A stretch of DNA of 64,000 nucleotides from Patiria pectinifera (taxonomy: Eukaryota > Echinodermata > Asteroidea > Valvatida > Asterinidae): the NCBI GenBank assembly GCA_029964075.1, contig CM057142.1:1627770-1691769 (forward strand), written 5' to 3'. A model generated the notes under the pieces. That model saw only the letters and a list, made by a program, of their open reading frames with translations. It was not told where the DNA came from and did no database searches. This document shows positions 1 to 31,337 of the stretch, in pieces; within the stretch, counting starts at the first letter, position 1; each line of letters begins with the position of its first letter. The position numbers and the translations under genes were made by a program.

Positions 1-2562
1 CAGTTCCATATTTCCAGTTTCCTCACTGGTGAAGTGACGAGTGGAATCAGCTTGAGGAGCTGCTGAGTCCTCAGGAGGATGCTGCATGATGCTCCTGCTG
101 TCAATCCCTCCAACACATGTTGTAAGCTCCATCTTTCCTGTAACATCTTGAGCAAAGATGCGTGTCTGATCTGAGGTTTGAAAAAGATGAAGCTCATTGG
201 CAGATTGTGGCATAGACTTATCGTTTATCCCACCAAGGCAAGTAGTCATCTCCATGGATGCAGTGTTTTCCGATGTAAAGATACGGGTGTGGTCTGTTGG
301 AATTCGGGCTGTGGTTTGAGAGACCTGACATTTATCAGGAGACTGCGGCTTTGTCTTCTCATCAATCCCCCCAAGGCAAGTAGTCATCTCCATGGATGCA
401 GTGTTATCCGATGTAAAGATGCGCGTCTGATCTGAAGGTTGGCGGCACATTGTTTGAGACAGATGGTCATCAGGACACTGCAATGTAGTTTTTTCAGTTA
501 ACCCACCAATACACGTTGTCATTTCCATGGATGCAGTGTTATCTGATGAGTAGATGCAGGTCTGGTCTTGGGGATATTGTTGTTGAGACGTTGAACTGAT
601 CACCAAGTTGGTATCTCTTGGTGACAATTTTATGTTCATCCCAAGTGAGCGATCTGGAAGACCATTATTTGTGCTGTCAGCAGCAGTTGATGCTTCTTCT
701 GGTGATTCCTTAGAGAGGAGTCCTCCGACACATGCAGTCATCTCCATTCCTGTAGTGTCATCTGAAGTGAACACTTGTGTGTGTTCACCAAGGTTATGGG
801 ACTGAGGTCTGGCTGCGAAAGTGGGTAGCTGAAGCCCGCCGATGCACTTTGTCATATCCATTCTTGCTGTGTCGTTAGAGCTGAATATCGTGGTATGGTC
901 TCCAAGTTGTCTTGTGGTCTCCGCTCGACAAGAATCAGCTGACATCTTGGGAAATATCCCACCAATACAAGCTGTCATTTCCATTTTAGCCGCCATTTCC
1001 ATTTCGGCCATCCCATCTTCAGAATTGGTTCTCTGTACTCTCCGGCTGGATGAAACCAGTGATGGAAATGGTTTGAGAGAGCCAACACAAGTCGTTAATT
1101 CCATCTGTGCTGTCTCATCTGCAGAGAAGACTTGCGTCTTGTCAACCTGCTCTATTTGACGAAGTTGTGTGCCCACCATCTTAGAAGAATCCATAACCAT
1201 GCCTCCAATGCAAGTTGTCATTTCCATTCTGCCCGTGTCATCTGAAGTGAAGTTTCTGGTAAGGTCTTCTATTTGGATAGATGGCATTGAAGGTAGGGGT
1301 TCAAAAGATCCAACACAAGTTGTCAATTCCATGTGTGCCGTCTCGTCTGCGGTGAATATATGTGTCTTATCAACATGTTTTGTAGAAACCATTTCAGTGT
1401 CTTTCATCTTGGAAGCATCGACCAGCACACCTCCTAAGCAAGCTGTCATTTCCATCCGACCCGTGTCATCTGAAGTGAAGTTTCTCGTAAGGTCTTCAGG
1501 TTGGACTAATGGCAGAGTACTAGAGGCCACTCCGCCCATCCGTTTGACTGCCGCAGAGGATGATTTTGGTTCTACAACCAGACCACCAATACATGTCGTG
1601 AACTCCATACAACCAACATCTTCTGCCTTAAATATTTGGGTTTTATCCGATCCAGCTGGCTCAGCAACAATAGACTTCTCAAGCGGTTTATCGTCATGTT
1701 TTATTTGAACTTCACGAGATGGACCATCAACATAAGTGGTCTCATTTCTGATGGTATGGTCAGTAGCAAAAGGTTTAATGTTCTCTTGTTGAGCTACTTC
1801 TCTTTGTGACATGGAGGTGCCTAGTTTTGTGAAGGTTGTTTTCTCATCCAAGCATTCTGTCATCTCCATGGCTGCCATGTTATCGTCACGATGAAAGACT
1901 CTTGTCTTGTCTCCAGCAGCATCTTGGTTGCCGGTGATGGATGAAATTGAACCAACGACAGATTTGGTTACATTTCCTTGATAATTTAGGCAAGTAGTCA
2001 TCTCCATTGCAGCAGTGTTATCATTATAATGAAAGATCCTTGTTTGCCCCACGTTAGCCTCTGGTCCTGGATGGTTTGAGGAGTCTACAATGTGAGGACC
2101 AGCACAAGCGGTGAGGTCCATTTCTCCGCCATCAATTTGCCCATGAAAGGTTTGGGTGATGTCTGCCAGTGGTCTAACAGCTCGACTGCGCTTCTGACTT
2201 GACGGTTGCGGTTGCTCTTGCTGGTCTTGCAGACCACCAACACACTGTGTAAACTCCATGCCTCCAATGTCATCTTCGCCAAACCTGACCGTCATATCTG
2301 AGTGCTTGACTGAGATGCCAGATTCGAGTTTTGCTTGAAGCATCCCACCTACGCAGGTTGTCAGATCCATTCCTGAATTCACATCGTCATCCCGACCAAA
2401 GACCTGAGTTTTCTGCTCATCAGGAGGATACTCATTCACTTTGTTTGGTATTCTAGAATGCCCAGTAAGACCAAAGTCATCACTTGGGTTAGACTTGGCA
2501 AGGGATTTCAAGAAAGCGCTGCCATCTGTCTTTTTGAGACTGAGGCAAGCTGTCAAATCCAT
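1..2562 (-). repeat. KNL1: MELT repeat array of KNL1
   Basis: There are eighteen complete repeats and one cut at position 1, spaced 75-260 bp apart. The core is M(E/D)(M/L/F)T, usually with TTC or TAC after it and then IGG, VGG or LGG. Repeats at 1093/1216 and 1321/1444 alternate two subtypes (…DETAQMELT and …DDTGRMEMT), which points to duplication of a two-repeat module of about 228 bp. Repeats at 244 and 382 are nearly identical in DNA. Confidence 0.93.
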
Positions 2563-3572
2563 TTCTGCAGCAACGTCGTCCTGCCCAAATATACAAGTTT
2601 CATCTGACACTGATGTTGCTTGTGACGGTTGACCATTGTTTCCATGTAGGGACTGTGAGAAGCTCTTGCCATCTTTCTTCTCTGAAACTTTTGACTCATT
2701 GTTAGCGCTACTGTCAGCATCTGGGAATGATTGTGCAGAATTGCCAGACCCAGTGAAGGACTTCAAGAACTCTTTGCTGTCCAATTTGGCCTCCCGATCC
2801 TGATATCGATCCCCATCTGTGTAGGCTGGAAAGGTAGAATGCGCAGGCTGGTTAAAGCTATCCCCACCTGGTGCTGTCGACATGAAAGATTTCAAAAATG
2901 AATTTGCATCTTTCTTCTGGACAGGATCATTAGAGCTATCCTCACCAGGTGCCATCGACATGAATGATTTCAAAAATGAATTTGCATCTTTCTTCTGAAC
3001 ATGCTCGTTGAAGCTATCCTCACTCGGTGCTGTTGACATGAAAGATTTCAAAAATGAACTACCATCTGTCTTCTGGATGGATGGCTCTGTTGTCACTGGC
3101 TGATCATACGATGTGTATTCCGGATCTTTCAAGCCAGCGATAAACTTCTCTCGGCACAACGTGACCTCAAAATTGGCAGTGTCCAGATCGACATCTGGGC
3201 CATCATGGAGTTCGGAGTGACTCATCGAGGAGATGAAGCTACTACTGTGGCAGGAGCTACTAAACGAATCAGTCACGGGGAGAGAACAGTGATATCTTGG
3301 TCCAACGAGGCCGACACCAAGGCTGTCGTGAGTAGCAGTCATCCCTGGCCAATCCTGCACCTCATCTGATTCTAAATCGTTGGCATCTGATGCCTCTCTT
3401 GCACTGCTCTCAACTTTGGTTTCAACCACTAGCTCGCAAGTCTCGTCAATCATGGGTAACTGAACAGCGCCCTCTTTTGGTTGCAAGTAAGCATGAGGAA
3501 TCATTGGCTCATTAACAACGGCTTCTTGATGAGATTGGCTCTTTATGGGGCCGGAGAGAAGGGTTTCCAGAC
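1..3572 (-). CDS. KNL1: KNL1 giant exon: KI-like array and MELT repeats (partial)
   Basis: One open frame runs from acceptor TTTTCAG (3573) to the window edge, about 1,190 codons with no stop. Six KI-like motifs sit at 3040-3072, 2962-2994, 2884-2916, 2755-2787, 2647-2679 and 2500-2532. MELT-type tetrapeptides lie at 2551, 2359, 2248, 2110, 1996, 1858, 1596, 1444, 1321, 1216, 1093, 973, 850, 736, 517, 382, 244 and 121 (left coordinates), with a cut one at 1-9. Most are preceded by a threonine and an aromatic residue about 9-12 residues upstream and followed by TxC(I/V/L)GG. The serine/threonine- and acid-rich linkers look disordered. In this family MPS1 phosphorylates the MELT threonine to bind BUB3. 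Confidence 0.95.
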
Positions 3573-6500
3573 CTGAAAATTGATTTCACAAAAAGTTGAC
3601 TTGGTGTTAGAGTTTTGTTTCTTTCATTCCATTCTATACAGACCAAACCTTTGAACCAATATTAGTTCAGAGTTTTCAGTCAAGTGCAACACATCTCTTT
3701 CTGTCTCAAATCACGTCATAAGCTATTAAAATGAACTGTGACAAACTGCACTGATTTGTCTTTGTTTGTCCCACATTACCTGTAACCTGGCTTGTGATTG
3801 ACCTGTGATGGAATTGACGAAAATGTGTGTTCTTTTTAGCCTTTTAAGGCAAGTGACAAATCTGGGGTAAACAAACTGCTGATGACAAAACAAGGCCTTA
3901 CAATGACAGAGAGATAAATGCACATACACTCAGGTTGCTTAAAACAGCACAACTAACTGCATAAAGTATAAAATGCTGGCAAAGAATGTTAGATGGGATA
4001 CCTCGTATACAATGCCCTGGTCCCACCGAGATGTCGGGCTGAAATGACTGGCTGGCAGTCGCATCCTGCACGGAGCTGGTTTTTATTTAAAAAGAGATAG
4101 GACACAAAGAAAGAGCCAATCAGTTTACAAATGCTCAAAGTTTTCTCAATCCACAAATAACCAGAGTAGTGTCCTATCGTAAATGCCATCAATTACTATA
4201 AGGGTCCTAAACAATGACTGCGGAGACTTTACTGTGGAATACCGAGACAATACACTTTAGTGAATTGCTGCTTTCGTCTACAAGGTAAAACAGTCATGAA
4301 TCTGCAAATGGTGTTTAAGATTTAATATTGCTTCATTGTGAAAATATTGGTAAGAATTTTGTAGTTATTCTATATGAACTTGGGCTGAAATCATTGATTA
4401 ACTCAATTAACCCATTAGCACCTATTCTACAACATATTACATTGTGTTTATTCACTGAAGAATCAATAAAACCATAGTGCTCGGGCAGATTTGGGTGCAA
4501 CAATGATAGGCAGGAAGGTTTCGGGTGCTACAGTGACTAAAGGGTTAACAAGTAATCCCTTAATGGTTACAAACAGAAAGATAGGATAAACACTTGATGA
4601 CGTCCATGCAAAGACACAAAAGGTTTGCACAGACCGGGGTGTCCCATATACTGGAGCTCTCGTGACAGGCAGGAGTGAGATTGGGAGGAAACAATAAATC
4701 CACGAAAAAATTGGCAGAGGGTTTGAGGGTCCCTGAGTGCCCCAGAGCTACTTATGGTCTACATGTATGGTATATGTATGCATTTGCCTAAAGGTACCAC
4801 TGGCAATGCCCATTTCTTTTGCTCTAAACTTTCATAGGTAAAAACACCTTTACGGTAAAACATTACGTGATAACTTTATTCCAGATTTCAAAACGGATTC
4901 TTTAAAAATCCTGAAATCAGGAAAACTCCCAAACAATATCCAGAAATCAGAAAGAATCCTGACAAAAATCCTGAAATCAGGAAGAATCATGAAAAATCCT
5001 GACAAAAAATTGTGAAAATCAGAAAAAATCCTGACAAAGCTCAGCCCTAGAGGGTCCTCAACTGTTGATTGGGAATTCCTACCTGGTGTGTGCTGTTGCT
5101 TCATCTACCTTCTCTGGTGAGAACAGCTGGGTGGAGTCTCTCTCCACATTGGTGTCCTCCAGTAATTTCAGCTGGTTAGCTGTCAAAAATTCCCTGCATA
5201 GCACCATGGAAAAGACACTCAGAAATCAGACACACTTCCTGCACATGCATAAACTGCAATCTAACTGTATCTATTCTTTAATCTAGGGTGGTGCCGAATA
5301 TAGAGGCCGTGCACAAAGTACCCCCTCAACGGCAAGAAAAGGAGAGTTGGGGGAGACCACTGGGAAAGACATTTGAACATATTGCTGACGATGCCTGACA
5401 CTCACGCCAAGATGCTATGGCTTGGTGTACATTTAGAATAAAATAAGTAATGCGTACTCTCACTCTTGAAAGTGGTAAACAGCGCCCTCTCTTGTTTGCG
5501 CATGGAGCCCCCAAGGTTTTTGAAGAATGAAACAGACTGGACTTGAACCTGGACCTCAAGAATGTTGTAACAGCGTTCTACAAACTGAACTATCCAGTTC
5601 TTTGTTGGAAGCCTCCCACATTGTCAACTAGTCAACGCCTTCTTCAGATGGCACCTTTGTATCGACAATAATTTTAAGGATAAAGACTAAACGTGAACAA
5701 AAACTTGATCACAACTCACTGGACTTGGTATGTGTTGGCAAAGCTAACTCTTCTTGAGGAACGTCGTTTCTTCTTAGCGCTGTTTGGCAAAACAAAAGCA
5801 AAGAAAACATTAATTTGTAAAATAAGATTCACACTTTATGAATATTAATGGAAAAGTGAAAAATGGTAATAGTAAATTTTTTTCCAAACTTTAATTCCTT
5901 TTTTCAAATGACTATTTTAATAATATTTTCCCCTTTTCAGCCTTACTTTGTAGTGTCTCGCTCATCTACATTCGGATCCAAATCTTGAAGGGCATTTCTG
6001 GACGGCGACTTCAATATCTGTCAAACATTAAATAATATTATTTGTCAATATAAATACTCATTTAAATTAATGCTTCAAAAGTATTTTTCAGATTTATATT
6101 CACAAATACTGCAAATGTGAAATTTACCAAGATAATGTTTAATAATCAAGATACAATAAATTAATCAGTTCCATTGCCACACAACCTAGAAAATGCCTAA
6201 GAATATGAACAGGAGGCCTAATTATTTTGATAACACAGTGACTTTAAGATCAAAGAACTTACAGAAGAGCGTCTCTTCTTGGGCCTGGGTCTTGACCCCA
6301 CACTGCAGAAAAGACAGGCAAACACGTCACAAAGTTAAATATCAAACCTCTGGCATGCGTACAGCTACAGCCAATTTCTAGCATCTTAAAAACCCAAACA
6401 CAAACTGGAAAGTAAGCAGATGACAATGTTAAGACATCTCTGCGTTACAATTCTTGCTACAGGTTGAAGGCTTGAGCTAATGAAATAAACAAGTGCAATT

Positions 6501-8760
6501 AATGATTTCTCAATACTTTGAATTATCACAGCCAGACTTGGCAAAAACGTAGTCGTAACTTGAATAACTCCTGGGACCGATTTCACGGCACTGCTAAGCA
6601 CAGGATTTTCTGTTAACAGAGCCTCTGTCTATTTCATGGAGACCGTAAGCAGCAGGCACAGCAAAAGGCATGCTCAGAGGAAAAAGTTGCTTAAATATTA
6701 GTGATATAACAATTTAAATCTTCATGTGCGCAGCCGTTAGCACATACACGCCATAAAATAGTGCTTACCTACATGTAGCCTTCCCAAATCCTCCAGAAAT
6801 CCTCTTTGTAAAATGGAGGATTTTGCAGGATTGAGGCTACATGTATAAAATATGGCAAAAGTGTGTGTCTAATTTCTGAGGATGCACTTTATCAAGGTCT
6901 TAGGCCGGACCATTGCTCAGCCATGCATACAATTATACTTGAAATCCTCCGCACTGCTCCAGGATGTCACTAGCTCTGCCTCAACATATTGACAGTGATT
7001 GCCGGAGGTTTTGCAGGATTGAGGCAGTGGTCACCCCTCCAAGGACCACATTCAAGAAATAACGGAGGATTTTGCAGGATTCAGGCTGTATGCTATTTTT
7101 TACATGGAGGCAGTTGGAAGATTTTGCAAGATTGAGGTTACATCCTTCAATCCTTGCAAAAATGCCTAGGGAGTTAGGGTGATTTGCACAATTTTCTGCT
7201 ATCCTGGCTATATAGTAATTGAGTACAACTTTTCTGCTAACTGTTAAGCAGCGCAGTTTATTATAAACAAATCACAATGGATCTTGAAGTGGACCTGTTG
7301 GTGTTAAATATAAAACAAAATGAAACCTTACATGTACATGTGTTCACATGTCAGTTTACATGTATCTCCATAAGGCCAAAAAAGAAGTTCTGCTTCCGAT
7401 TACATGCCATTTTAAATTGAGCGGGGAAAAAAAGAGTAAAAAAATTAATCCCTTGTAAACAGGTAGTGCCTGCATTTATATAATTCTGTACACACGAGGT
7501 TTGATTTCTCCAACTTTTCTGTTTATACAACCTTATTGTTCCCAACTCTTTTCCCATCATCTTCCATGCTTGTATGAGATCACTACAGAGCGTTTCCTTC
7601 AAGCATACTTACCCAAGATTTTCTCCCTCCAAAGCAAACCGGATTCCACTCATAGCGACAGTGAACAGATACTCCGTCAAGCCGAAAAATTACACGTACT
7701 TTGCCTGGAGAGTAAGACAAATGTGATTATCCTGTCAATCTGTGCACTTTTCTGTGGGAATTTCAACAAGAAGGTTCCTGAATCATCCAAACTCTAACAA
7801 TTTATTTTAATCTCAAACTCAAGAGCAGATTATTTTATTCACATTTCGGTGTTTGGCAGTAAATTTTGCAGGATTGTTTCTAAAATTGTTTTCATTATAT
7901 TGACCTTCAAGTTCAAGGCTTCATTGAGACGAATCAATGACATATGATGAAGAAAGAAAGTGAAAGTGGCGTCAGGTTGCAACATTTTTTTCCCAGTAGT
8001 CATACTGCCCTGGTTTGTGCACAGGCATGACAGGGTAACAAATGGCCAGATATGGCAATGTATGGGAATCTTGGTAATCCTTACTTTTAGGACCCCGTTC
8101 CTATATAAGGTTACAAGACTCACCAAAACAGCTGACTAAATGACACTCAAAAGTGACATTCTGATATTTCTTGTCTTATATCTGAACAGTATGACCCTTC
8201 TTGAATATCAGCAGGTTTAATTTTGTGGAAAGAGGCTGACAGGGATTTGATTTATGAGGGAAATTAGGGGGGGGGGAAACATGGCAATGACAAACAGTAA
8301 ACAGACTCAAAAACCAAGATGGCAAACTGCAAAAACACTGAAAAAAGGGTAGGAAAGTCACATTTTCTTTGAAAGTGCTTTCAAAATTACAACTTTAGAC
8401 CATTAATCAGAAGATAAAAGATTTCTTTAGCCTGCAAAGGTCACTTTGGTGCTGGACAGTCTATTGCCAAAGTCAGTTTTGAACAGAACTTGTGAAAAAT
8501 AGAGGTGTCCTAAAGATAAGGATTACCGGAATATTTATGTTTATGCCGGTGCCGGCGGTGCGGTAATATTGTATTATTGGGGCGAGTTGACACAATTTCA
8601 CAAAAGTAAGGCACAAAAGTCCACCAAACAATGCCGTATACAACCCAATTTCTATGTAGTTTTCGAAACTTAAAGTATTCTTAAAACATTCGTTATTATT
8701 TACATGATTATATGAATAAAAAGTTGCCACAATATAATACCTTGCATTAGATTTCGACAT
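1..8760 (-). CDS. KNL1: Kinetochore scaffold 1 (KNL1/CASC5/Spc105), 5' part, cut by the window edge
   Basis: KNL1 is the outer-kinetochore scaffold of the KMN network. It recruits PP1 at its N-terminus and BUB3-BUB1/BUBR1 through phospho-MELT repeats. Coding exons read on the minus strand are 8741-8760, 6263-6302, 5947-6017, 5720-5779, 5083-5193 and a giant exon 1-3572 that runs off the left edge. The predicted N-terminus has SILK at residues 20-23 and RRVSFANT around residues 53-60, both family hallmarks with PP1-docking roles. The giant exon has six KI-like motifs and at least 18 complete MELT-type repeats. The C-terminal coiled coil and RWD domains would lie beyond position 1. Exons 1-5 join in phase. 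Exon 5 leaves two bases over but the giant exon needs one, so a small exon between 3,573 and 5,082 is probably missed; 4002-4051 would fit but is weak. The start ATG at 8760 was chosen because its donor (AG/GTATTA) joins exon 2 in frame. Confidence 0.93.
2500..3072 (-). repeat. KNL1: Array of six KI-like motifs in KNL1
   Basis: Six copies have lysine at position 1, aspartate at 3, phenylalanine at 7 and phenylalanine or leucine at 11: KTDGSSFLKSF, KKDANSFLKSF twice, KLDSKEFLKSF, KKDGKSFSQSL and KTDGSAFLKSL. The register equals the vertebrate KI consensus K-I-(D/N)-x3-F-(L/I)-x2-L. The first three are exact 78-bp (26-residue) tandem repeats. The last lies directly after the first MELT repeat, where human KI1 lies. 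Confidence 0.75.
4872..5040. repeat. Degenerate short tandem repeat in KNL1 intron
   Basis: A unit close to AAAAATCCTGAAATCAGGAA recurs about seven times with drift. Inside the unit TCCTGA and TCAGGA form a short inverted repeat. It lies in the intron between exon 5 and the giant exon. Confidence 0.6.
5083..5193 (-). CDS. KNL1: KNL1 coding exon 5
   Basis: This 111-nt exon reads EFLTANQLKLLEDTN followed by an acidic segment ending TAHT. It is in phase with exon 4, with acceptor TATGCAG and donor GTAGGA. Its outgoing phase does not match the giant exon, which suggests an unseen small exon or an alternative splice site. Confidence 0.75.
5310..5405. repeat. Dispersed repeat, partner at 19,245-19,330 (inverted)
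   Basis: The stretch with GTACCCCCTCAA, GGAGAGTTGGGGGAGACCAC and TGGGAAAGACATT recurs in reverse orientation in DCAF4 intron 8. Only these shared cores are clear and the ends are not seen. Confidence 0.5.
5720..5779 (-). CDS. KNL1: KNL1 coding exon 4 (RVSF, PP1-docking motif)
   Basis: This 60-nt exon encodes AKKKRRSSRRVSFANTYQVQ. RRVSFA is the RVxF-type PP1-docking site. In this family Aurora B phosphorylates its serine to release PP1. Acceptor CAAACAG, donor GTGAGT. Confidence 0.92.
5947..6017 (-). CDS. KNL1: KNL1 coding exon 3 (SILK motif)
   Basis: This 71-nt exon begins ILKSPSRNALQDLDPN, which completes SILK across the junction and matches the conserved SILK-proline-LQDL context of animal KNL1. 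Acceptor TTTGACAG, donor GTAAGG. Confidence 0.88.
6263..6302 (-). CDS. KNL1: KNL1 coding exon 2 (basic segment before SILK)
   Basis: This 40-nt exon has an acceptor TTCTGCAG and a donor GTAAGTT. It encodes VGSRPRPKKRRSS and supplies the serine of the SILK motif at its last codon. A basic stretch before SILK is typical of KNL1. Confidence 0.8.
6783..7150. repeat. Interspersed GGAGGATTTTGCAGGATTGA repeats
   Basis: GGAGGATTTTGCAGGATTGA-like units occur near 6815, 7002, 7064 and 7115, separated by unrelated sequence, in KNL1 intron 1. They look like a decayed tandem or foldback element. Confidence 0.45.
8073..8527. mobile_element. hAT-like MITE, copy 1
   Basis: The ends GGTAATCCTTA and TAAGGATTACC are inverted repeats. 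The flanks GGAATCTT and GGAATATT form an 8-bp target duplication with one mismatch. The interior matches the copy at 28,870-29,285. There is no coding capacity. It sits in KNL1 intron 1. Confidence 0.8.
8741..8760 (-). CDS. KNL1: KNL1 coding exon 1 (start codon)
   Basis: ATG at 8760-8758 encodes MSKSNA plus two bases, then an AG/GTATTA donor. Joining to the exon at 6302 is in frame. This exon is short and rests on splice logic only, so it is less certain than the others. Confidence 0.55.
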
Positions 8761-28000: not shown

Positions 28001-29863
28001 TTAAAATTTATCATTTTGGGGTTTTTTCCCACAAAAAAAAGGAGGTGGCCTGTAAAAACGAAGTGGGCGGGATGCTTAACATGTTTTTTTATTTGGCCAT
28101 TAGATGTCTTTTCACAAACACCTTATAGTGATCTTACCAATGATAAATCTAGGATCACGTAGCCAACTGTGCTGGTAGACAGCGTACTGTGTCAGGTAAC
28201 GGCCTTGTAGATAACCATTGGTTATGCAGAAGACAAACGCTAGGAAAAAGGCGAGAAATGTTGTCGGCTTGCCACCACGGATCAGAAAAGTGAAGACAAA
28301 TGTTCTGTAGTAAATAAATGTTAAAAAGAACAATAAAGTCCATTTCTGAGAATGTTTATTCGTAGTGGTGCATATAAAAGCAAATACAAGAATATTTGGG
28401 AAATATTTCCATATAAGAAGTTTACTAATTTTCCTCTGTATTGACTAACAAGCCCCCAGATAGCAATTTCATGTCATCAAAGTCAATTTGAGCAGTCAGA
28501 AAATACAAGCATTTTCTTAGAAAACACTTAGAATTTTTCAGTCCACTCTCATAGGGTTTGTACACAGGGTGTTGAGCGAACTTCTTATATGGAAATCTTT
28601 CCGAATATTTGTCTTAAAGTCACAAAGATGGTCCAGAAATATTAAGCTTAAAGGAATGATTGCTTAAAAAATACTGGATTTATATAGGCAGTTTTTCAGA
28701 TGTTGATAAGTTACAAACATACATATAAAATACATTGTATTTGTAACATGACACAATTGACGTCAATACTACTACCTTCCCACTTCCAGTAAATTTGAAC
28801 TGATTTATTTCCTCCCCTCCCCTCCCAACCATATCTACACATACCATACTACAGTACCACTGTCCACCTGGTAATCCTTACCTTTAGGACCCCATTCCTA
28901 TATAAGGTTAAAAGACTCACCAAAACAGCTGACTAAATGACACTCAAAAGTGACATTCTGATATTTCTTGGCACGTTTGACATGTTTGAATATCAGCAGG
29001 TTTAATTTTGTAGAAAGAGGGCAGGGCTTTGATTTATGAGGGGTAAAAGACGGCAATGACAAACAGAAAATATATTAAAAAAGCAAGATGGCGAACTGCA
29101 AAAAAAGGTAGGAAAGTCACATTTTCTTTGAAAGTGCTTTCAAAATTACAACTAACATGAGTTTATCTGAAGTAAAAAAGCTTGTTCTAGCCTGCAAAAG
29201 TCACTTTGGTACTGGACAGTGATCTGCAAAAGTCAGTTTTGAACAGAACTCGTAAAAATAGAGGTGTAGAAAAGTAAGGATTACCGTCCACCTGACATGC
29301 CTGACCACTGCCAGCTCAAATCAAAATTCGCAATTAATTATGAAGTCTCTAGTCCCACTAACTGGGTCGCTAGAACTCCTTTTTTGACATTTGGGTACGA
29401 CACTTACATCCCAAATGTCCAAAAAAGAGTTCTAAACTTAAGTTCTAGCGACCCAGTTAAGTTATTAAATAGTGGGACTATGAAGTGTCAGTTTGTGCGC
29501 AGTTTCCTTTCTCTATATGCCAAATTACCTCTGGAAGTAGTGGATTATCATGAGACTGATGAGGAAATTGTTGATGAAGCCCCGTTGTCCTCCACTCACG
29601 ATCAGTAGCACACTTGGCACCAGAAAGCTCGGGAGTTCCTGAATAAACCAGGCAGGTTTCCCCGGTACGAAACACCCGAATCGCGAATCGACATATCTGC
29701 CGTACGGAGCGCCAACAAACTGCAAAATGACACTGACTATCGCACCAAGAAACATGAAACAATATGCCAACTTATCTAACAACTCGTCTTCCTTCATCCC
29801 CAGCATGTCCGTCAGGGGTTGTATGAGGGGCAGGGGCACAGGGGATGCAACCGGCGCAGCCAT
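25006..29863 (-). CDS. SRD5A1: 3-oxo-5-alpha-steroid 4-dehydrogenase (SRD5A1/2 type)
   Basis: This enzyme family reduces the 4,5 double bond of 3-oxo-4-ene steroids with NADPH in the ER membrane. Five exons join in phase to 822 nt (273 aa): 29529-29863, 28138-28304, 27018-27119, 26120-26270 and 25006-25072. GKPAWFIQELPSF (residues 68-80) holds the glutamate and HYFQRTF (residues 108-114) the tyrosine that correspond to the active site. RGGKP, NGYLQGRYL and DPRFIIG follow. Cofactor-region blocks are SDSILRNLRKPGETGYKIP, GMFEYVSGANFFGE and the C-terminal WYYKQKFDDYPK…FIPFLL. Several hydrophobic segments fit the seven-helix fold. Length is close to human SRD5A1 (259 aa). The first exon encodes a slightly longer N-terminus. 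The symbol marks the type, because SRD5A1 and SRD5A2 cannot be separated here. Confidence 0.95.
26120..26270 (-). CDS. SRD5A1: SRD5A exon 4
   Basis: 151 nt. GMFEYVSGANFFGEVVEWTG is followed by a hydrophobic segment and AYRHHW. Acceptor GTTACAG, donor GTATGT. Confidence 0.95.
26465..26595 (+). mobile_element. SINE S1 fragment
   Basis: It keeps the B-box end (GGGTTCAAGTCCCACCC), a G-run, ACTGAGTATGCAGTAT and GTAAGGTGCAAAAACA, matching the second half of S1 copies. It lies in SRD5A intron 3. Confidence 0.5.
27018..27119 (-). CDS. SRD5A1: SRD5A exon 3
   Basis: 102 nt. INIQSDSILRNLRKPGETGY is the best-conserved cofactor-region block of the family. Acceptor AAACTAG, donor GTCAGA. Confidence 0.95.
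27770..28105. mobile_element. Inverted-repeat MITE with CCAAATAAAAAAACA ends
   Basis: The ends CCAAATAAAAAAACA…CATGTTTAGCATCC and the reverse GGATGCTTAACATG…TTTATTTGG match over about 30 bp. CCATTA occurs on both flanks. The interior repeats GGCCGCCA-like and poly-T blocks. It lies in SRD5A intron 2. Confidence 0.6.
28138..28304 (-). CDS. SRD5A1: SRD5A exon 2
   Basis: 167 nt. TFVFTFLIRGGKP and ITNGYLQGRYLTQYAVYQH match the family core. Acceptor TTTACTACAG, donor GTAAGA. Confidence 0.95.
28870..29285. mobile_element. hAT-like MITE, copy 2
   Basis: Ends GGTAATCCTTAC and GTAAGGATTACC are perfect 12-bp inverted repeats. GTCCACCT is directly repeated at 28862-28869 and 29286-29293, a perfect 8-bp target duplication. 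The interior aligns with 8073-8527. In SRD5A intron 1. Confidence 0.9.
29350..29480. mobile_element. Short palindromic Mutator-like MITE
   Basis: A 131-bp element whose ends TAGTCCCACTAACTGGGTCG and its inverse, then AGAACT and ACATTTGGG blocks, fold back on themselves. The flanks TGAAGTCTC and TGAAGTGTC are a 9-bp duplication with one mismatch. It lies in SRD5A intron 1. Confidence 0.8.
29529..29863 (-). CDS. SRD5A1: SRD5A exon 1
   Basis: Starts MAAPVASPVPLPLIQPLTDM, with two hydrophobic segments and the QELPS active-site block. The donor AG/GTAATT lies 39 bp from a transposon in intron 1. Confidence 0.94.
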
Positions 29864-31337
29864 TTCGCTCGATCTTGAATAAAATTGCTGGCTAAATAAA
29901 AACCAAAAAAGGGACCTTCCCCTGCACTAGACTGCACTGCAGTTCACGTGCGAATTATCGCGCGCCCTCTATTGATTATTGTGTAAGCTTTTATCAGAAG
30001 GGGCGGGTCCGAGTGATAGGGGCGTAATTCCGGGGGGGGGGGGGCTGCCAACCCACCTATCCCAATAGATTTTTTTTTGCAGTAAACAATGTGGGCCTAT
30101 CATCACGGTATCCTCTCGTGCACTACTGTGAAAAAAAGGAAAAAGAAAAAGTAAATTAAGAAAAGAAGAGCACCCGAGTTTATTTGAAAATTATTGATTG
30201 TCGATACATTGTATGTCCAAATTAATTAAATAGACCTTAAGCTCACATTCATAATTTATTAAAATGTGAATAGGGCAAAGTCTTTTATTGTTAAAATTGC
30301 GCCCTAGATACACCACTGCCGGCCACAGGCGAAGATGGGGTGGGTTTTTTTGGGGGGGGGAGGGGGTTTCTCCTTGTATGCCTGGCGTGGATTCCCCTCC
30401 AAAGGAACTCACATCCGAATTGAATCTTTTTCTTTCTTTCTTTTTACAAAATTTCATAGCTTCTGGGCCTTACATTTTTCTTTTGAATTAAAATAAATAT
30501 TCCTTAGATTTTGTTTTAAATAAACTTTACAATGTTCCCAATAAAACAAATGTTCATAGACTTATAAAGTTTTCAACACTTTCAAATTTTGTCCTTCTAC
30601 TTTCTGGTGTAAATAAATTAATTATTTAATAAATTAATGTTGACCTCCGCAAATTCAAAGTTCCAATCCTTTCATCACCGAACGAAAAGCTGAAATACAT
30701 GAGGGTTTTTTTTGTACAAGACTTGAGTAATCCAATAAATCACATCTCAGAAATAATATTTTTAATTTGGGGGATGATGTGAAATTGTGTACCTTCTCCA
30801 GATCCACTACCGGGCCTGCAAAGAAATTAATCTTCCTATAAACGACTAAAAACAAAACCACAGAAATGTACCCCGTGGGCCCAGTGTGCATGTTGTATAA
30901 ACAAGCCAAGTTAAAAATAAATAAAGGATAAAATAATGTGAGAAAGCAAGTAAACTGGTTCTAGAAAGTTTAGATAAAATTGGCCTGGAGAGGGCGGTAT
31001 ACGCACTGACCACAAAATTAAAGATCGAATGCAGTATCTCGCATGCATTGCTATTGCTATGCTGCATACATGGCATATGGTTATCAGTAAGTGGTCATTC
31101 CGCCTCTGTTGCTCGCGTTTTTGTGGATATAATTTTCATGGAATTTACTACCTTTACTTAAAAAAGGGTAAGTCACTTCTACATGTAATATCAGCAATAT
31201 CTGTCACTAAAGCATGTCGAGATATCTGTCGAATTTAAGTTAATGTATCGATATATTATAATACAATGTTTTTAATTTTAGGAAATGTTTGCGGTTTTTG
31301 TCTCGAATTTCCAACACAACATAGGCCTACATGTACT

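Follow-up and report, generated by a model that had tools for sequence, protein, structure and literature searches.

Candidate array of KI-like peptides beside the first MELT motif of KNL1 in the sea star Patiria pectinifera

KNL1 and its KI-like segments

The window analysed here, a stretch of 64,000 nucleotides from Patiria pectinifera (C14:1627770-1691769; all genome-wide searches cover the assembly of 613.5 Mb in 1020 contigs), contains at its left edge the minus-strand gene KNL1, whose large exon encodes an array of short segments resembling the KI motifs of human KNL1. In human and vertebrate KNL1, KI1 and KI2 dock to TPR domains, those of BUB1 (4A1G) and BUBR1 (3SI5). Human KNL1 has two such motifs, whereas six KI-like copies are present here (cores 1-6, Table 1). 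They lie in the register K-x-D-x3-F-x3-[FL] described in an earlier reading made from the sequence alone (the sequence-only reading), all on the minus strand, and together span exactly positions 2500-3072. The F-L-K-S that the same reading had seen in five of the six segments is confirmed; the fifth core reads FSQS.

The KI-like array is present at one place in the genome, and its cores 1 to 3 form a tandem. The description of this trio as three exact 26-residue tandems holds for the spacing, which is exactly 26 residues across copies 1-3, but not for the copies themselves, of which only the second and third have identical cores, the first agreeing with them at 8 of 11 positions. In the tandem spacers (2858-3039, minus strand), copies 1 and 3 carry EDSFN and GDSFN, respectively, and copy 2 carries EDSSN; we take the E-x-S-F form to resemble a Polo-like kinase site.

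The sequence-only reading had not included a possible seventh KI-like site, TLCREKFIAGLK, which fits the pattern [ILV]....F[LI]..LK. It has L2, F7, I8, L11 and K12 and is devoid of K1 and D3. No other site of the exon, the six cores included, fits the hydrophobic contacts of the human KI motifs as well; the pattern, defined post hoc, appears in 3 of 1000 shuffles, and the site scores just 13.5 with the human-KI matrix described below.

The gene is identified as KNL1 because of its MELT array and its in-frame SILK and RVSF exons, which, with the Pfam matches, bear out the earlier identification. Exon ends, splice sites and the start codon were read by eye, making the gene model a prediction from genomic sequence. 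The large open frame, counted from position 3585, comprises 1,420 residues on the minus strand and passes the window's first base, and the acceptor AG of the exon was read just above 3572. A Pfam search of the exon gave MELT (E 2.3e-20) and MELT_2 (E 1.5e-15). By regular expression it contains 19 M[E/D][L/M/F]T motifs and one degenerate MEVS; 18 of the motifs lie fully in the window, the 19th straddles its edge and MEVS is outside it. Human KNL1 is drawn with 19 MELT motifs in a figure legend of PMC7614552.

The small upstream exons join in frame as MSGIRFALEGENLG / GSRPRPKKRRSS / ILKSPSRNALQDLD.. / ..KKKRRSSRRVSFANTYQV, yielding SILK and RVSF (RRVSF). SILK is formed across an exon junction, where the serine that ends one exon meets the next, opening with ILKSPSRNALQDLD (S/ILKSP). 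As candidates for the C-terminal coiled coil and RWD domain, two joined downstream exons have the human KNL1 RWD structures 4nfa, 4nf9 and 8q5h as the top three of four PDB matches, all weak (E 0.041-0.093); no Pfam family matched these exons, and a separate search also gave no KNL1 match.

The MELT units themselves (1-2562, minus strand) follow the form TxxF...MEMT-[T/A]-C-[I/V/L]-G-G, most of them with a cysteine as the second residue after MELT, and have no Ser-His-Thr motif of the kind described after MELT in human KNL1.

Table 1. Features of the KNL1 gene in the window, ordered by position.
Feature	Position	Strand	Basis and remarks
Large KNL1 exon	1..3572, running on past the window to about -677	-	open frame; Pfam MELT, MELT_2
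MELT array	1..2562	-	20 regex matches; Pfam
KI-like core 6, KTDGSAFLKSL	2500..2532	-	pattern; human-KI matrix score 22
MELT1 (MDLT), the protein's first MELT, flanked by cores 5 and 6	2551..2562	-	regex
Core 5, KKDGKSFSQSL, weak	2647..2679	-	pattern; matrix score 14.0, inside the shuffle range
KI-like core 4, KLDSKEFLKSF	2755..2787	-	pattern; matrix score 23, exon maximum
Tandem array, 78-bp (26-aa) unit	2852..3077	-	2.9 copies, 84% matches
KI-like core 3, KKDANSFLKSF	2884..2916	-	pattern; matrix score 22
KI-like core 2, KKDANSFLKSF	2962..2994	-	pattern; matrix score 22
KI-like core 1, KTDGSSFLKSF	3040..3072	-	pattern; matrix score 20.5
Possible seventh KI-like site, TLCREKFIAGLK	3127..3162	-	fits [ILV]....F[LI]..LK
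Exon with PP1-docking RVSF (KKKRRSSRRVSFANTYQV)	5720..5779	-	exon ends by eye
Exon opening with ILKSPSRNALQDLD	5947..6017	-	exon ends by eye
Exon GSRPRPKKRRSS, upstream of SILK	6263..6302	-	exon ends by eye
Putative first coding exon, MSGIRFALEGENLG	7613..7653	-	start codon and exon end by eye

Resemblance to the human KI motifs

With human KI1 (KIDTTSFLANLK) and KI2 (KIDFNDFIKRLK) the segments share K1, D3, F7, L or I at position 8 (five of six here) and a hydrophobic residue at position 11. They differ at position 2, where the human isoleucine is replaced, as the sequence-only reading had observed, by T/K/K/L/K/T in cores 1-6, core 4 being the sole one with a hydrophobic residue there. Position 4 is small here, and K at position 12 is found in none of the cores. 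According to the available part of PMC3267040, I213, F215, F218 and I219 of human KI2 are essential, while K212, D214, N216 and D217 make no contact to BUBR1; K1 and D3 of the register are thus not contact residues in that complex. Human KI2 binds BUBR1 at 9 micromolar (PMC3267040). As to the hydrophobic contacts, F7 is present in 6/6 cores, L8 in 5/6, F or L at position 11 in 6/6 (L in two) and I or L at position 2 in 1/6. The copies are named KI-like because five of them have no hydrophobic residue at contact position 2, while F7, F/L11 and, in five, L8 are kept.

Residue shuffles of the 1,420-residue exon gave a mean of 0.023 pattern matches, against six observed, and 0/2000 reached six; this test is optimistic, because the pattern was drawn from the same data. 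With local shuffles, 0/5000 reached even four matches. An independent test used a BLOSUM62 matrix derived from human KI1 and KI2 alone, with which all 12-mers of the exon were scored. Cores 4, 2, 6, 3 and 1 take ranks 1-5 (20.5-23), and the best 12-mer per shuffled exon scores 13.7 on average (95th percentile 18.5; largest of 2000, 27.5). Five 12-mers score at least 20, compared with a shuffle mean of 0.029 and a maximum of one, so that 0/2000 shuffles give five. The score of core 5 (14.0) is indistinguishable from shuffles.

After these shuffles, chance alone is a very unlikely source of the pattern, even in a disordered protein rich in lysine and serine. Such an origin would draw on the non-independence of copies 1-3 and on the good KI-like 12-mers of random frames, where 6/138,642 background 12-mers score at least 20 and one, at 24.5, lies above every core. 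Because background 12-mers can be equally good, a single matrix match would mean little; what counts is the occurrence of five in one exon of this length.

Like the human KI motifs, the segments belong to the N-terminal, disordered portion of the protein and adjoin MELT1. Core 6 comes after MELT1, starting 10 residues past its M (frame residues 351 and 341), and the order of MELT1 and core 6 mirrors that of human MELT1 and KI1, in which KI1 (K202) lies 25 residues past M177 of MELT1 (8ppr_K sequence). In the human protein MELT1 comes first, then KI1 and after it KI2; here five cores (1-5) precede MELT1 and one follows. The available part of PMC7614552 puts the KI motifs upstream of MELT1, while the 8ppr_K sequence has KI1 after it. 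The proposed likeness to KI stands in part: five of the six segments are top-ranked by the human-KI matrix and one adjoins MELT1 like human KI1, but none matches the full consensus.

A KI-like segment has also been proposed for another invertebrate KNL1, fly Spc105R, as a putative BUBR1-binding motif at K202-L214 (available part of PMC3267040); a single motif was proposed there, in contrast to the array here, and the fly protein was compared by description only. A protein pattern scan of genome contigs (23 matches) and of viral contigs (2 matches), a set without echinoderm relatives, returned no relative. Closer to hand, the MELT repeats are also arrayed short BUB-recruiting modules in one exon that evolve through tandem duplication. 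They work via phosphothreonine and BUB3, however, and the KI-like cores have no MELT residues in common with them, for which reason an origin of the cores from a MELT unit was rejected.

Repeat history and predicted structure of the cores

The segments could also reflect no more than the usual turnover of repeats in a disordered linker that evolves fast: tandem duplication and dispersal would have multiplied one ancestral segment, KI-like or unrelated, and the additional copies would do little. Three of the copies do form a young 78-bp tandem, in which the cores are kept just marginally better than the spacers (27/33 versus 28/45 identical positions; Fisher p = 0.08, not significant), and KNL1 is reportedly prone to rapid repeat turnover, to go by the title of Tromer 2015. 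Copies 4 and 6, on the other hand, keep the core while their flanks are almost unlike and their codons differ synonymously, which neutral decay would not yield, and turnover by itself is decidedly unlikely as the explanation. In the 12 pairs involving copies 4, 5 or 6, identity amounts to 77/132 in the core, 9/144 upstream and 19/180 downstream, counts in which the pairs are non-independent and four of the 11 core positions (K1, D3, F7 and F/L11) were set by the search pattern. Positions 8-10, outside that pattern, are L in 5/6, K in 5/6 and S in 6/6 copies, and synonymous codon differences occur inside the cores of the diverged copies.

A single-sequence AlphaFold2 model of KNL1 frame residues 129-378, of very low confidence (mean pLDDT 40.9, pTM 0.16), has helices on cores 1, 2, 3 and 6. 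On cores 1 and 2 the helix starts at position 4, like that of the human KI2 complex, and the three repeat-spaced, lysine-rich peptides would resemble the human motifs in being helical, although this is weakly predicted. The model is compatible at most with a disorder-to-helix transition.

The MadBub type found and its TPR groove

TPR exons of Pfam family PF08311 occur at two places on the same contig as KNL1, at 18.39 Mb (plus strand) and 18.08 Mb (minus strand), and encode an identical protein in both exons (133 residues). Beside the 18.08-Mb locus lies a third MadBub TPR copy, which is inverted, indel-rich and frame-broken. Three instances of the MadBub 5' region thus lie within about 0.3 Mb (18.39 Mb, plus; 18.05-18.09 Mb, minus); the additional ones could stem from a partial duplication or from the assembly. 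Kinase exons, with IIHADIKPDNFLL and LVDFGRS, accompany the TPR exons at 18.39 Mb; none were found in 40 kb around the other TPR locus.

As far as found, the genome appears to encode one MadBub type with TPR and kinase parts, in one gene that is complete as far as seen, instead of the human pair BUB1 and BUBR1. The genome search ranks the best candidates only, so that a further diverged MadBub copy is possible. The suggestion that the array changed the preference for BUB1 or BUBR1 is rejected as inapplicable, because only one MadBub type was found above the PF08311 cut-off. Below that cut-off (31.4 bits), a weak match on contig C2 (20.3 bits) was not counted, as it falls in a 417-residue frame with no TPR likeness evident by eye. 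A genome search for Mad3_BUB1_II (PF08171) came back empty at E up to 1, so that the GLEBS part of MadBub was not seen.

The MadBub TPR domain aligns better with human BUBR1 (3si5, 132.7 bits) than with BUB1 (4a1g, 84.7 bits). Of 13 groove or contact positions taken from the available part of PMC3267040, 5 are identical to BUBR1, W125, L128 and N133 among them, and 10 are identical or similar; in the remainder of the domain the figures are 54/119 and 78/119. Phenylalanine at groove positions 139 and 141 corresponds to F86 and F88 of human BUB1, while W125 and L128 match BUBR1. L131, which contacts the KI isoleucine, aligns to a phenylalanine next to a one-residue insertion. BUBR1 E107 pairs with R221 of KI2 (PMC3267040, available part); R at position 10 is found in none of the cores, and the E107 partner position is serine in MadBub. 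A co-change of peptide and groove is possible, as judged from these alignments.

A proposed docking zone beside MELT1

The six segments, perhaps with the seventh, probably form a multivalent zone of weak TPR docking beside MELT1 that boosts MadBub recruitment, a proposal made with moderate assurance. On this view, the array of KI-like peptides in the disordered N-terminus is specific to the lineage, and each peptide would fold to a short helix on the MadBub TPR domain, chiefly through F7, L8 and F/L11. With isoleucine gone from position 2, a single contact is expected to be weak. A group of copies near MELT1 would, however, provide multivalent docking and hold MadBub-BUB3 close to the MELT array, which would amplify the role of 'MELT enhancer' assigned to human KI1 and KI2. 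Of all this, the array, its KI likeness, its site adjoining MELT1, the remainder of KNL1 and a MadBub with TPR and kinase exons are observed, whereas helix, binding, avidity and an effect on the checkpoint are inferred. In this way an array of weaker sites could raise the local amount of MadBub with MELT phosphorylation unchanged.

The segments might instead be conserved short linear motifs that dock another partner, such as a kinase or phosphatase or a microtubule factor, their likeness to KI being a partial convergence on a helical F-L-x-x-L/F peptide. Human KI2 has isoleucine at position 2 and a hydrophobic residue at position 4; 5/6 copies have lost the former and 6/6 the latter, the TPR groove shows no special conservation, and the dominant common feature, FLKS (5/6), includes K9 and S10, which are not KI consensus residues. 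A different partner would, however, turn both the ranking by a matrix built from human motifs only and the position adjoining MELT1 into coincidences, and no candidate for it was found. We regard this alternative as unlikely, though it deserves serious attention.

For a docking zone bound by MadBub, several results are unfavourable. The full consensus KI[D/N]xxxF[L/I]xxLK has no match in the 1,420-residue exon, position 4 reads G/A/A/S/G/G in cores 1-6 beside the replacements at position 2, and core 5 has neither L nor I at position 8. A phmmer search of the PDB with the array returned no KNL1 peptide and nothing at all at E up to 10. The AlphaFold2 helix is missing on cores 4 and 5 and on TLCREKFIAGLK, and one helix falls on a spacer. 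On the receptor side, E107 is replaced by S and Y116 by K, and the groove is not specially conserved, because the rest of the TPR domain is comparably kept. The high-scoring background 12-mers and the non-significant core conservation within the tandem trio belong here as well. Finally, human KI mutations do not abolish checkpoint function, according to the available part of PMC7614552, so that even true binding may matter little.

Relation to known KI motifs

In the parts of the respective papers that were available, KI motifs are called not conserved beyond vertebrates (PMC6657678) or, in a figure legend, unique to some metazoans (PMC7614552); PMC4337726 calls their significance for human cells unclear. 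The sequence-only reading knew of no description of such an array, which agrees with a literature search that returned no KI array and no echinoderm KI motifs from the parts of papers it covered, a coverage that stopped short of Tromer 2015, the likeliest place for one.

Tentatively, and with less conviction than for the docking zone itself, KI-type TPR docking may not be a vertebrate invention. Echinoderms would have it with a single undivided MadBub, and this lineage would have amplified it to a multivalent array with the changed consensus K-x-D-x3-F-L-K-S-F/L, losing isoleucine-2 along with a change in the TPR loop (L131 to F with the one-residue insertion, and E107 to S opposite a KI position 10 that has lost its R). 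If true, KI docking would predate the split of BUB1 and BUBR1 rather than following it. Amplified KI-like sites together with one MadBub would make such an echinoderm a natural example of many KI copies served by one receptor, in which one could ask whether KI docking existed before the BUB1/BUBR1 duplication and whether the number of docking sites tunes checkpoint strength.

Other loci

Elsewhere in the genome, a bindin core exon is present at C11:9439569-9439766 (minus strand; PF02084, E 1e-33) and carries LGLLLRHLRHH and LLARIG. The former is identical in sea urchin and sea star bindin, and a sea-star core-domain primer reads LAR (available part of PMC4063459). This exon marks the animal as an echinoderm and, through the primer, as probably a sea star; a search of the assembly for mitochondrial COX1 gave 0 matches.

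Within the window, an open frame at 29525-29926 (minus strand) starts with MAAPVASPVPLPLIQPLTDMLG and ends with ...IHYFQR; Pfam gave no family for it at E up to 1. It resembles exon 1 of a type 1 steroid 5-alpha-reductase gene.

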